Shown one piece after another: positions 1-6,864 of a stretch of 22,030 nucleotides of DNA (position 1 is its first letter; each line of letters opens with the position of its first letter). The translations under genes and the position numbers were made by a program. Source of the stretch: a virus; IMG/VR virus record IMGVR_UViG_3300021185_000096, positions 1 to 22,030 of that record. One strand, given 5' to 3'. The notes under the pieces were generated by a model that saw only the letters and a list, made by a program, of their open reading frames with translations, was not told the origin of the DNA and did not search any database.

Positions 1-743
1 CCCAAGTCAAACCTAATTCACCTACTGACCACCTGAGATGGGCGGGATTGTATGCGGCAGAGAAAAAGCCAGATGTCATTGTGCATATTGGCGATCATTT
101 TGATATGCCTAGCCTATCATCATGGGATGTTGGGAAGAAGTCGTTTGAAGGCCGTCGATACAAGGATGATATCGAGGCAGGGATACACGCAATGGAAGTA
201 TTCTTACAGCCTATACGAGATGAGCAACAACGGCTAAAGGTAAACAAGCATAAACAGTGGCGGCCTCGCATGGTCTACACACTGGGCAACCATGAAAACC
301 GTATTGAACGCGCTATTGAGAGTGATCCAAAACTGGATGGTCTGATAGGGTACAAGGATTTACAGTTGGAGGAGATGGGTTTTGAGGTTTATGACTTCCT
401 TGACGTGGTGATTATAGATCAAATCGCATACGCTCATTACTTTACTTCTGGGATAATGGGTCGGCCTGTATCCAGTGCTAGGAATATGCTCAGTAAAAAG
501 ATGATGTCCTGTATTATGGGTCATGTACAAGATAGAGACATTGCCTATGGCAGGAGAGCAGACGGAACAAACATTTTAGGATTGTTCTCAGGGATTTATT
601 ATCAACATGATGAGGATTACCTTACCCCACAAACTAATTCGTCATGGCGTGGTATATGGATGCTGAACGAGGTTGCTAATGGTGGGTGCGATGAGTTGCC
701 AGTGTCGATGAACTACCTACGGAACAAATACCAAGGGAAATAA
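1..743 (+). CDS. Calcineurin-like metallophosphoesterase, 5'-truncated by window edge
   Basis: The reading frame is open from base 3 with no stop, so the gene starts upstream of the window. A TTG at 48 could be read as a start, but the residues before it (QVKPN...DHLRWAG) fit the family and continue the protein. Visible metal-site motifs are GDHFD (90-104), GNHE (285-296) and a GH (519-524). The last motif reads GHVQ instead of the usual GHxH, and the first DxH-type motif would lie at or before the window edge. Phage proteins of this type are binuclear-metal phosphoesterases, often sitting at the end of the replication/nucleotide block; the substrate is unknown. This is the last plus-strand gene before an inverted cassette. 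The family call is firm, the biochemical role is not. Confidence 0.85.
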   Translation, partial: QVKPNSPTDHLRWAGLYAAEKKPDVIVHIGDHFDMPSLSSWDVGKKSFEGRRYKDDIEAGIHAMEVFLQPIRDEQQRLKVNKHKQWRPRMVYTLGNHENRIERAIESDPKLDGLIGYKDLQLEEMGFEVYDFLDVVIIDQIAYAHYFTSGIMGRPVSSARNMLSKKMMSCIMGHVQDRDIAYGRRADGTNILGLFSGIYYQHDEDYLTPQTNSSWRGIWMLNEVANGGCDELPVSMNYLRNKYQGK

Positions 744-781: not shown

Positions 782-1078
782 TTAGATATTACAGTAGTTA
801 AGATTGAATCTGACTTGAACGTGTATGTATTGATCATCGTGATAGGAATAGGCATTCTTCAAACCTTTGGCAATGTCTAGAATGCGCTTAACAAACTCAT
901 CATTTATATCGCTGTCATTTGTAAAAGCGAGCCTTGTAAGCTGTTTAAGGTTGTTTTTATGGCCCTCATCGTGGCCCCACAAAGAGCCATCAGAGTAGAT
1001 TGCAATCTCTGCATCATTCCCAATAGGGTCATCACAACCTAAAACCGCTGGTAAATCTTTTTTCCATTCAGTACTCAT
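782..1078 (-). CDS. Hypothetical protein, 98 aa
   Basis: Not recognised. It is a soluble, acidic protein with no membrane segment. It has a central Asp/Gly/His-rich stretch (IYSDGSLWGHDEGHKNN) and a C-terminal half predicted by eye to be one helix followed by a strand (YIHVQVRFNLNY). The start was set at the ATG at 1078 (MSTEWKK) rather than the ATG at 1090. The GGAGG inside the longer version lies 8 bases before the 1078 ATG and makes a good ribosome site for it, and that ATG overlaps the previous gene's stop as TAATG, which suggests coupling. It is the last gene of the minus-strand cassette and is followed by a terminator. No function is proposed. Confidence 0.65.
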   Translation of the reverse strand: MSTEWKKDLPAVLGCDDPIGNDAEIAIYSDGSLWGHDEGHKNNLKQLTRLAFTNDSDINDEFVKRILDIAKGLKNAYSYHDDQYIHVQVRFNLNYCNI

Positions 1079-1281
1079 TACAACCTCCATTTGGCGATAG
1101 ATACCTTCTCACCATATTTATTAGTTACTGTTAACCGTTCTGTCTTTATGTCGTGACCGTCTTGTTTCAACTCGCAGATTCTGGCAGGGCATTCTAATAT
1201 CCCCAACATCTTCCAAGAGTTCAAGCGTGTCAGTGTATACCCACGCTCCAAGTAAGCCAGTATGCGTTCTTTCTGAGTCAT
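1078..1281 (-). CDS. Small winged helix-turn-helix protein (HTH_39-like), 67 aa
   Basis: The sequence MTQKERILAYLERGYTLT...ARICELKQDGHDIKTE...KWRL matches the pattern of the short phage helix-turn-helix family: a first helix (QKERILAYL), a recognition helix ending in ARICELKQDGHDI, then a two-strand wing (ERLTVTN / SIAKWRL). It probably binds DNA and could regulate this cassette or the divergent late promoter; that part is inference. The start is the ATG at 1281, with GGAGGG seven bases upstream; a TTG at 1296 inside that ribosome site would give a longer but less likely form. There is a one-base gap to the upstream gene, and its stop overlaps the next start (TAATG). Confidence 0.7.
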   Translation of the reverse strand: MTQKERILAYLERGYTLTRLNSWKMLGILECPARICELKQDGHDIKTERLTVTNKYGEKVSIAKWRL

Positions 1282-1783: not shown

Positions 1784-1813
1784 ATTCTAATCTTATACAT
1801 TGACAGATGTCAA
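1784..1813 (-). promoter_or_regulatory. Sigma70-type promoter of the minus-strand cassette
   Basis: On the minus strand TTGACA (1813-1808, perfect -35), an 18-base spacer and TAGAAT (1789-1784, five of six -10 bases) lie about 47 bases upstream of the first ATG at 1737. This is the best match to a host housekeeping promoter in the window, which suits genes read before any phage regulator is made. Confidence 0.7.
1800..1813. promoter_or_regulatory. Inverted repeat over the -35 box (possible operator)
   Basis: TTGACA-GA-TGTCAA is a perfect 6-bp inverted repeat with a 2-bp centre. One arm is the -35 element of the minus-strand promoter. A dimeric repressor bound here would block RNA polymerase. 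The small HTH protein of the same cassette is an obvious but unproven candidate ligand. Confidence 0.45.
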
Positions 1814-1885
1814 CAATGTAACGCTCATTTTTATAACGAGTTCTTATAAGGATATGCAATAAACTAACTTTTACTCATATATAAG

Positions 1886-1903
1886 GGGTAAATAGGGTAT
1901 AAT
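1886..1903 (+). promoter_or_regulatory. Probable late promoter ahead of the packaging genes
   Basis: A perfect -10 box, TATAAT (1898-1903), is preceded at fixed distance by GGGTAAA (1886-1892). No convincing -35 hexamer is found 15 to 19 bases upstream. The expected start of transcription is near 1909-1911, giving a leader of about 75 bases before the first late gene at 1987. The missing -35 suggests that an activator may be needed. A similar arrangement lies ahead of the major capsid gene (7592-7609). Confidence 0.5.
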
Positions 1904-1942
1904 TGGTTAAATAATGATCAATCTGGTTAAAAAATGATCAAT
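1904..1942. repeat. Tandem 20-bp-period repeat at the late promoter start site
   Basis: TGGTTAAATAATGATCAAT (1904-1922) and TGGTTAAAAAATGATCAAT (1924-1942) match at 18 of 19 bases and start exactly 20 bp apart, close to two helical turns. Each contains the palindrome TGATCA. They begin directly after the TATAAT box, so they cover the predicted start site and early transcribed region. A further dyad, ATTGA-A-TCAAT, follows at 1941-1951. The layout looks like a multi-site operator. Confidence 0.55.
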
Positions 1943-1986
1943 TGAATCAATGGTGTAGGAATAAATAATATAGAGGAATACAGTAT

Positions 1987-2283
1987 ATGGCACGTCCCAA
2001 GGGAGCATTAGGCAAGAACAAAGCATTTTTACTCAATCGTCTAAAGGATATGTATGGGAAAGACTTCGATCCCATAATGAAGGCGGCAGAACAGGCTCAT
2101 ACCCTCGACCAGTTGGCGCAGGAAGATCCTACTGTGGCCAATCAACGTGACTCTATAGCTTCATGGCTCAAGATAGCGGAGTACGTAGCACCCAAGCTAA
2201 AGGCAATAGAACACAGCACTGGAGATACAGGGATTACGGTGGCAATTCAGCGCAAGAATTACTCAGGAGAGTCCACGGAGTAG
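1987..2283 (+). CDS. Probable terminase small subunit, 98 aa
   Basis: The N-terminus MARPKGALGKNKAFLLNRLKD is typical of small phage DNA-recognition proteins that begin with a basic arm and a helix. A helical central part follows, ending in ASWLKIAEYVAPKLKAIEH, similar to the tail of many putative small terminases. The small terminase subunit selects the phage DNA and presents it to TerL. The placement as first gene of the late block and upstream of TerL supports this. The start is the ATG at 1987, with AGAGGA nine bases before it. Three tiny ORFs separate it from TerL, so the pairing is not immediate. At 98 aa it is short for a TerS, and it could instead be another small DNA-binding protein. 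Confidence 0.5.
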   Translation: MARPKGALGKNKAFLLNRLKDMYGKDFDPIMKAAEQAHTLDQLAQEDPTVANQRDSIASWLKIAEYVAPKLKAIEHSTGDTGITVAIQRKNYSGESTE

Positions 2284-2917: not shown

Positions 2918-4375
2918 ATGAGAATTGAATACAACTTGATGCCACAAGGCCAAGTCCTGCAAGATTTCAATGATTGCCGCGCAAGAAACTCCTTTATCAT
3001 GGGGCCGTTAGGTTCTGGTAAGACCGTCCAGTGTATTCTTAAACTGTTTGACCTCATGTGTGAACAAGAGCCTGTTAAAGATAAGAAACATAAGAACTAT
3101 GGTGTACGCTTATCTAGGGTTATTGCCGCACGTAATACCTATTCTGAGCTGTTCTCTACTACGATTAAAGACTGGCTAGAGATACATGGGGAGTTAGGTG
3201 ACTTCAAACAAGGTAACAAAGAACCTCCTACACACTTCATACGATTTAAGCTAGAAGATGGTACGTCTGTCCATTGTGATGTTGTCTTTATTGCGTTCGA
3301 CCGTCCTGAACACGTTAAGAAAGCTAGGGGTATACAGACTACATGGGTGTGGTTAAACGAGACTAAGGAACACGCTAAGGCTGTTTTAGATATGTTAGAC
3401 CTAAGACATGGTAGATATCCCTCTAACAAGGAAGGTGCGCGTCCTACACATCATGGAATCATAGGAGATAGTAACGCTCCTGATGAAGACCATTGGTATT
3501 TTAAACTAGCAGAGATAGAAAGACCTGATGACTGGGCATTCTACAGACAACAGGGAGGGGTATTGAAGGATGGTGAAAGCTGGATTATTAATAAAAACGC
3601 TGAGAACCTTACTAACCTTCCTGATGGCTATTATAAAAGAGGACTTCAAGGGAAGACGGATGATTGGATCAAGGTCAATCTAGCGAATGAATACGGCTTT
3701 GTATCTAACGGTAAACCTGTACATCCTATGTATACTGATTCAGTCCACTGTCAACACATGGAATTTGAGCCTACTAAAGACCAGCCTATTATTCTTGGTT
3801 TTGATTTTGGTCGTACTCCAGCGTGTGCTTTTATCCAAAGAACCTCTGTAGGCCGTTGGGTCTGCTTTGATGAAGTCGTATTAACTGACTCTGGCGCTGT
3901 TGACTTTGCCCCTAGTCTTAAAAGATATATCGAAGAAGTCTATCCTGATCACACGTTTAAAGGATGGGGTGATCCCTCTGGTAACAATAAGAACCAGTCT
4001 AACTCTGAAACACCTTTCCAGATTATGAGAGCCGCAGGCATACCCTGTCAACCTACTGCGTCTAATGATCCTATGAAGCGTAGAGCCGCCTTAGAAGTCC
4101 CTATGAAAGAGATGTGCATGGATGGCAAGCCTAGATTTATTGTACTACCTAAAGCATCTATGATCCGTAAAGGTCTACAAGGTGGTTTCTGCTACCGTAG
4201 AGTACAGACTACAGGGGAAAGATACACTGATGAGCCTGATAAAAACGAATATTCTCACCCTGTTGAGGCTTTGGAGTACGCATTACAAGGTGAAGGCGAG
4301 GGTCGTGCCGCACTACGACGCACAAACACTTTTTCAAAAGCTGTTACAGCAAAAGTAAATTTTAATGTCTTCTAA
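2918..4375 (+). CDS. terL: Terminase large subunit (packaging ATPase and nuclease), 485 aa
   Basis: TerL is the motor that translocates DNA into the prohead through the portal and cuts the concatemer. The N-terminal ATPase has a Walker A, GPLGSGKT (29-36), and a Walker B-like WVWLNE (143-148). The C-terminal RNase H-fold nuclease begins at ILGFDFGRT (293-299), with D296 as likely metal ligand. It continues with FDEV (317-320), GDPSG (351-355) and DKNEYSHPVEALEY (441-454), a usual late motif of this family. Length is normal for the family. The ATG at 2918 has GAGG five bases upstream. The last codons overlap the next gene by 11 bases. The whole protein appears intact. Confidence 0.93.
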   Translation: MRIEYNLMPQGQVLQDFNDCRARNSFIMGPLGSGKTVQCILKLFDLMCEQEPVKDKKHKNYGVRLSRVIAARNTYSELFSTTIKDWLEIHGELGDFKQGNKEPPTHFIRFKLEDGTSVHCDVVFIAFDRPEHVKKARGIQTTWVWLNETKEHAKAVLDMLDLRHGRYPSNKEGARPTHHGIIGDSNAPDEDHWYFKLAEIERPDDWAFYRQQGGVLKDGESWIINKNAENLTNLPDGYYKRGLQGKTDDWIKVNLANEYGFVSNGKPVHPMYTDSVHCQHMEFEPTKDQPIILGFDFGRTPACAFIQRTSVGRWVCFDEVVLTDSGAVDFAPSLKRYIEEVYPDHTFKGWGDPSGNNKNQSNSETPFQIMRAAGIPCQPTASNDPMKRRAALEVPMKEMCMDGKPRFIVLPKASMIRKGLQGGFCYRRVQTTGERYTDEPDKNEYSHPVEALEYALQGEGEGRAALRRTNTFSKAVTAKVNFNVF

Positions 4376-6586: not shown

Positions 6587-6864
6587 CTTGGGAAAATATT
6601 GATCAACTTTCTGATTCAAAAACGGCTAAAAAACAAGCTGAATTACGAAAAAGAAATGCTAATGATTTGGCTAAAGCATATCACAGGGTCTTTACAACTG
6701 ACGATGGAGCGCGTATCTTAACAGATCTGACCAAAAGGTTTGTTTATGATAATGATACTTCTTTTGGCTCAGAAAATATTAATTACGAATCTGCTTATCA
6801 TAACGGTGAAGCTGGAGTAGTTAAGTTTTTAATTAACCAAATGAGACAAGCTGAAATTAAATAA
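6583..6864 (+). CDS. Bbp19-like small structural protein, 93 aa
   Basis: The segments AYHRVFTTDDGARILTDLTKRF (about residues 32-53) and YHNGEAGVVKFLINQM (about 72-87) fit the small Bbp19-type virion domain found between portal and scaffold in Bordetella phage-like podoviruses. The family name is recalled, not searched. It is almost certainly a head-morphogenesis or minor virion protein; the precise role is unknown. The start overlaps the portal stop as ATGA, so translation is coupled. It is followed ten bases later by the scaffold gene. Confidence 0.65.
   Translation: MTWENIDQLSDSKTAKKQAELRKRNANDLAKAYHRVFTTDDGARILTDLTKRFVYDNDTSFGSENINYESAYHNGEAGVVKFLINQMRQAEIK

Follow-up and report, generated by a model that had tools for sequence, protein, structure and literature searches.

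Organization of the locus

The window analysed in this work, that is, the whole 22-kb stretch of DNA, is one record of an uncultured virus, the nearest isolates of which by terminase large subunit (TerL) are Burkholderia phage BcepC6B (52%), Pseudoalteromonas phage Y3, Pelagibacter phage EXVC031P and Methylophilales phage MEP301. Two divergent operons face away from the region 1801-1986, and the repeats under study lie inside it, among the following features.

782 to about 1740, minus strand: leftward operon, from the ORF layout
1078-1281, minus strand: 67-aa HTH_39 winged-helix protein of the divergent operon (Pfam PF14090, E 1e-14), candidate binder
1784-1813, minus strand: divergent early-type promoter TTGACA-18-TAGAAT, from a promoter scan (11/12 matches)
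1876-1888, plus strand: AT-rich CATATATAAGGGG in the -35 region of the late promoter, kept in most close relatives (promoter alignment)
1898-1903, plus strand: TATAAT, -10 hexamer of the late promoter, read from the sequence and found beside the array in all 40 terS loci that have the tandem
1903-1921, plus strand: putative operator site 1, imperfect dyad TTGGTTA-AATAA-TGATCAA (PWM 22.4 bits; column identity 0.86)
1923-1941, plus strand: putative operator site 2, CTGGTTA-AAAAA-TGATCAA, 20 bp after site 1 (PWM 21.5 bits; column identity 0.88)
1946-1950, plus strand: ATCAA core, conserved in the alignment of relatives, where the 20-bp register would put the left half of a third site
1972-1977, plus strand: AGAGGA, likely ribosome-binding site of the first late gene, kept in close relatives
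From 1987, plus strand: rightward late operon, with a terS-like ORF followed by TerL, portal, capsid and tail genes (gene content)
1987-2283, plus strand: terS-like ORF of 98 aa, first gene of the late operon, with homologues in 49 contigs
2918-4375, plus strand: TerL, marker of the late operon, 52% identical to BcepC6B TerL

The gene content of the rightward operon suggests that it is expressed late, and the place of its first ORF ahead of TerL points to a terminase role. No TTGACA-like -35 was found at the late promoter, where the sigma-70 scan makes no call; therefore, an activator may also be needed. Given the TATAAT at 1898-1903, transcription would be expected to start at about 1910, inside site 1.

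On the divergent side, the perfect palindrome TTGACAGATGTCAA at 1800-1813 contains the -35 of the early-type promoter, and the related AGATGTCAACAA adjoins the HTH_3 gene of a relative (L146, about 2681-2692); the palindrome is possibly the operator of a Cro-like HTH_3 protein. Farther left, the match of the metallophosphoesterase of the window (48-743) to phrog_221 covers only positions 136-356 of the latter, and the homologues in L165 and L172 extend further, having at the N-terminus an additional region that resembles a helix-turn-helix in its sequence.

A tandem array of imperfect dyads

The two repeats, TGGTTAAATAATGATCAAT (1904-1922) and TGGTTAAAAAATGATCAAT (1924-1942), are identical at 18 of 19 positions with an exact period of 20 bp, and the first begins on the base that follows the perfect TATAAT. 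The original prediction, made from the letters of this DNA alone, of two near-identical 19-bp sites differing at one base and placed directly after a -10 was thus borne out. The scan for the 19-mer that it had proposed returned only these two places within three mismatches in the 22-kb window, and two such matches arose in none of 100 shuffles at the same threshold. The shuffle test, with 1000 dinucleotide shuffles of the intergenic region, gave at best 14 identities for a 19-mer repeat at period 20, as against 18 in the window, and a best tandem PWM score of 8.9, as against 43.9. The tandem repeats are far beyond chance. An RNA hairpin was rejected as an explanation of the repeat sequence (fold z -1.1), and a weak site at 6588 (TTGGGAAAATATTGATCAA) is accounted for by the coding sequence for MTWENIDQ, and its dyad is not preserved in every relative.

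The symmetry of the copies proved to differ from what had first been described. The hexamer TGATCA, reported as the dyad of each copy, is indeed there, but the variants in relatives reveal it to be one half-site and not the dyad centre: because the symmetry is preserved or even improved in variants like TTGGTTAAATATTGACCAA and TTGGTCAAATAATGAGCA, the symmetric unit is an imperfect dyad of 17 bp, TGNTYA-N5-TGANCA, in which the free base is the third of the left half and the fourth of the right half, matching the requirement of an inverted repeat. The final T of the -10 also belongs to site 1, which spans the expected start site. The third dyad that had been claimed to extend the array, ATTGAATCAAT (1941-1951), had to be given up, as relatives carry CGAATCAA, CTAATCAA, TAGATCAA or TTAAATCAA at this place and the dyad is not kept.

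The array in related phages

A viral scan with the exact 19-mer yielded 58 stretches, mostly relatives in which the site lies between TATAAT and the terS-like gene. Relatives fetched in this manner are motif-biased, and the bias-free set is that of the loci collected with the terS-like protein as the only query. Among the 45 such loci with enough upstream DNA, the tandem adjoins TATAAT in 40, a single copy is present in two (L012 and L069), and the motif is absent from three distant ones (39-43% identity). The original prediction was to fall if related phages kept the promoter while losing the sequence and spacing of the repeats; in fact, tandem and spacing persist together in these 40 loci, and the distant terS relatives L092, L094 and L095 lack both the motif and any recognisable form of the promoter.

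Conservation is concentrated on the two sites. Across 14 non-redundant tandem promoters, mean column identity was 0.86 in site 1 and 0.88 in site 2, as compared with 0.55 in the upstream flank and 0.65 in the downstream one; an earlier count over 17 representatives, two group B contexts included, had given 0.85 and 0.86 for the sites and 0.52 and 0.61 for the flanks, in the same order. Site 2 is missing in the lineage of L012, L033, L069, L126 and L145, and the first copy is degraded in L016; two copies are not strictly needed, since the L012/L069 lineage has one. Relatives L107-L112 and L148 have a different terS-like gene, yet they keep TATAAT and the array with one extra base between the two. 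Judged by these alignments, the tandem is a real, conserved and selected element.

Arrays outside the family

Tandem-pattern scans also recovered arrays of 2-5 dyads at a 20-bp period in unrelated phage groups, next to other early or late promoters.

Group B (L096, L099, L101, L102): three dyads in a divergent early region
Group C (L097, L100): array in the early region
Group D (L098, L103): five and four TTGATCA-N5-TGATCAA dyads, respectively, at a 20-bp period, then TATAAT 5 bp on
Group E (L035): tandem dyads, other gene set
Group F (L115, L116): tandem dyads, other gene set
Group G (L110): tandem dyads, other gene set

The TATAAT of group D being 5 bp downstream, its last dyad covers the -35. 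Arrays with mixed half-sites occur in L155 and L158, relatives of group C, and L133 has dyads at a 20-bp period too, beside a 72-aa ORF for which no relatives were found. The array recurs in phages with no gene in common over the sequence parts compared. A three-dyad array in L193 (7300-7369) and L195 (7181-7250) is wholly absent from the corresponding divergent intergenic region of the syntenic sisters L197-L199 (7080-7440). Several unrelated contigs (L009, L014, L017, L021, L023 and L027) carry a single exact 19-mer, possibly by chance, in non-coding DNA 5' of genes for the small or the large terminase subunit; chance accounts at least in part for the exact single 19-mers of unrelated contigs and of chromosomes. 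The search of phage isolates and plasmids, with a query that was partly low-complexity and possibly masked, gave no convincing motif match, and no account of the tandem element was found in the literature.

Among 84,980 bacterial and archaeal genomes scanned, the tandem turned up in five contigs only, none of them with the phage half-sites. Four of the five are from Pelagibacter, and in three of these the tandem precedes a MarR_EPS gene and has the half-site TGTTCA. Most genes of this bacterial winged-helix family (TIGR04176) have a YGTTCA-N5-TGAACR dyad, alike in geometry to that of the phages, 5' of their own start codon (L205-L218, L118, L121 and L122), in two copies at a 20-bp period in Pelagibacter. 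The upstream dyad of MarR_EPS genes, going by its position, is likely an autoregulatory operator of that family.

Candidate binders and alternative readings

The protein first proposed for a binding test on the repeats is the HTH protein at 1078-1281, here assigned to HTH_39; in this narrower form of the operator reading, a winged-helix protein made early would repress the late promoter. AlphaFold2 gives a confident winged helix (pLDDT 96), and the predicted fold resembles MarR/ArsR-type DNA-binding domains in the general manner of winged helices (fold matches at Z of about 8); a PDB sequence search with the protein gave no match. The gene occurs in every array-bearing record that covers enough of the early arm (11 of 11), groups D-G being short fragments without it, and by a small-protein scan it encodes the sole Pfam-detectable regulator common to groups A and B, being present in group C also. 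Phages fetched by HTH_39 alone furthermore include the group C relatives L155 and L158 with their arrays, as well as L165, L167 and L170 with weak dyads before terS. Nevertheless, a site does not accompany every close homologue: L172-L176, with HTH_39 about 60% identical and a very similar recognition helix, and L197-L199, syntenic and with HTH_39 77-82% identical, have no array in the 13-35 kb examined, the latter lacking it in the same intergenic region of a gene neighbourhood that is otherwise kept whole. Mannheimia phage 587AP2 likewise has the protein and not the array, and among groups A, B and C the recognition helices differ while the sites are near-identical. The proposal thus held as far as the regulator common to A, B and C is concerned and faltered on the copies of 60-80% identity without an array, so that we regard HTH_39 as a possible but doubtful binder.

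An HTH_3 (CI/Cro) repressor was rejected as binder: it is encoded in most group A records and absent from the long group B records G009 and G014, and the intergenic region adjoining the HTH_3 gene of L146 contains no TGNTYA dyad. The MarR_EPS operator has GTTCA in both halves, and the half-sites of the window are TGGTTA and TGATCA. A search for another shared binder found nothing common to all array groups, and the binder gene may sit in genome parts beyond the sequences compared.

Alternatively, the sites might be borrowed by phages from a host transcription factor. The recurrence of the array in phages without common genes, in the parts compared, and its presence or absence between syntenic sisters would agree with such a factor; the 84,980-genome scan described above, in which none of the five tandem contigs had the phage half-sites, makes it less likely. 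Single sites, about 40 in 398 Pseudomonadota genomes, are near the base-composition expectation by a rough estimate, although the control for this count was not a fair one, as CTAG, which is rare, occurs in the reversed pattern. We thus hold a host factor to be rather unlikely.

It is highly improbable, in our opinion, that the repeats serve for packaging (pac/cos) or for terminase binding beside terS. The array does lie 45 bp before the terS-like gene in the family of the window, and several unrelated single-site contigs also have the site 5' of terS or TerL, but it stays when the terS-like gene is replaced instead of travelling with a given terS, its place in groups B and C is the early region, at a distance from the terminase genes, and its fixed register to TATAAT would be left unexplained. 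Iterons for a replication initiator are scarcely credible: the 20-bp period, the AT-richness, the nearness to divergent genes and, in group B, to a primosomal gene recall them, but the family of the window has one or two copies only, in fixed register to the -10, and the initiator gene is elsewhere.

A putative late-promoter operator and its known counterparts

We consider it probable that the tandem consists of adjacent operators for a dimeric protein, and that the bound dimer blocks host RNA polymerase at the late promoter. A repeated dyad at near-helical spacing overlaps promoter elements that are kept in relatives, as is expected of tandem operators. Each 17-bp dyad would be the landing site for one dimer, and the spacing of 20 bp would put both dimers on nearly the same face of the helix. 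Taken together, the predicted operators would span the edge of the -10, the start at about 1910 and the first ~30 transcribed bases. Repressors usually work by competing with RNA polymerase. One dimer at site 1, alone or together with a cooperating dimer at site 2, would compete in this way, and late-gene expression would be kept down until the protein is lost to titration, to degradation or to dilution as the DNA replicates. A small winged-helix protein is the likely class of binder, for which the neighbouring HTH_39 would be the first candidate.

On a broader scale, the array might be an orphan operator cassette, whereby unrelated phages share a code of dyads at a 20-bp period and gain or lose the block at promoters of either the early or the late kind, all of them answering to one winged-helix regulator encoded by some phages or by the host; we put this forward as an unlikely scenario. 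The array offers a cis-element on which the early/late switch can be tested in a group of uncultured podoviruses lacking regulatory data, with a motif that recurs in several unrelated phages, and the binder, if found, would assign a role to a family of small winged-helix phage proteins or uncover a regulator common across phages.

Several known systems invite comparison. Among the nearest isolates, the podoviruses BcepC6B (Ryyoungvirus), MEP301 and EXVC031P have TerL of 36-52% identity, and the motif occurs in none of them. The small phage proteins of HTH_39/phrog_4973 have a winged helix, and in three groups their genes lie close to the array; however, they have no known binding site and are also found in sister phages without the array. 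The MarR_EPS (TIGR04176) dyads resemble those of the window in their 17 bp, their spacer of 5 and, in Pelagibacter, their tandem arrangement at 20 bp, whereas they have GTTCA in both halves and belong to bacterial exopolysaccharide loci, not to phage promoters. In lambda OR/OL, 434 and P22, adjacent dyads of ~17 bp, about two helical turns apart on a promoter, suit cooperative dimers. The array of the window is likewise made of adjacent ~17-bp dyads on a promoter, where binding is predicted; it differs in lying on a late promoter, with no CI/Cro-type gene adjoining and with a spacing of 20 bp. The putative tandem operator is a known and ordinary kind of element, whereas its motif is an orphan and its recurrence among unrelated phages is unusual.
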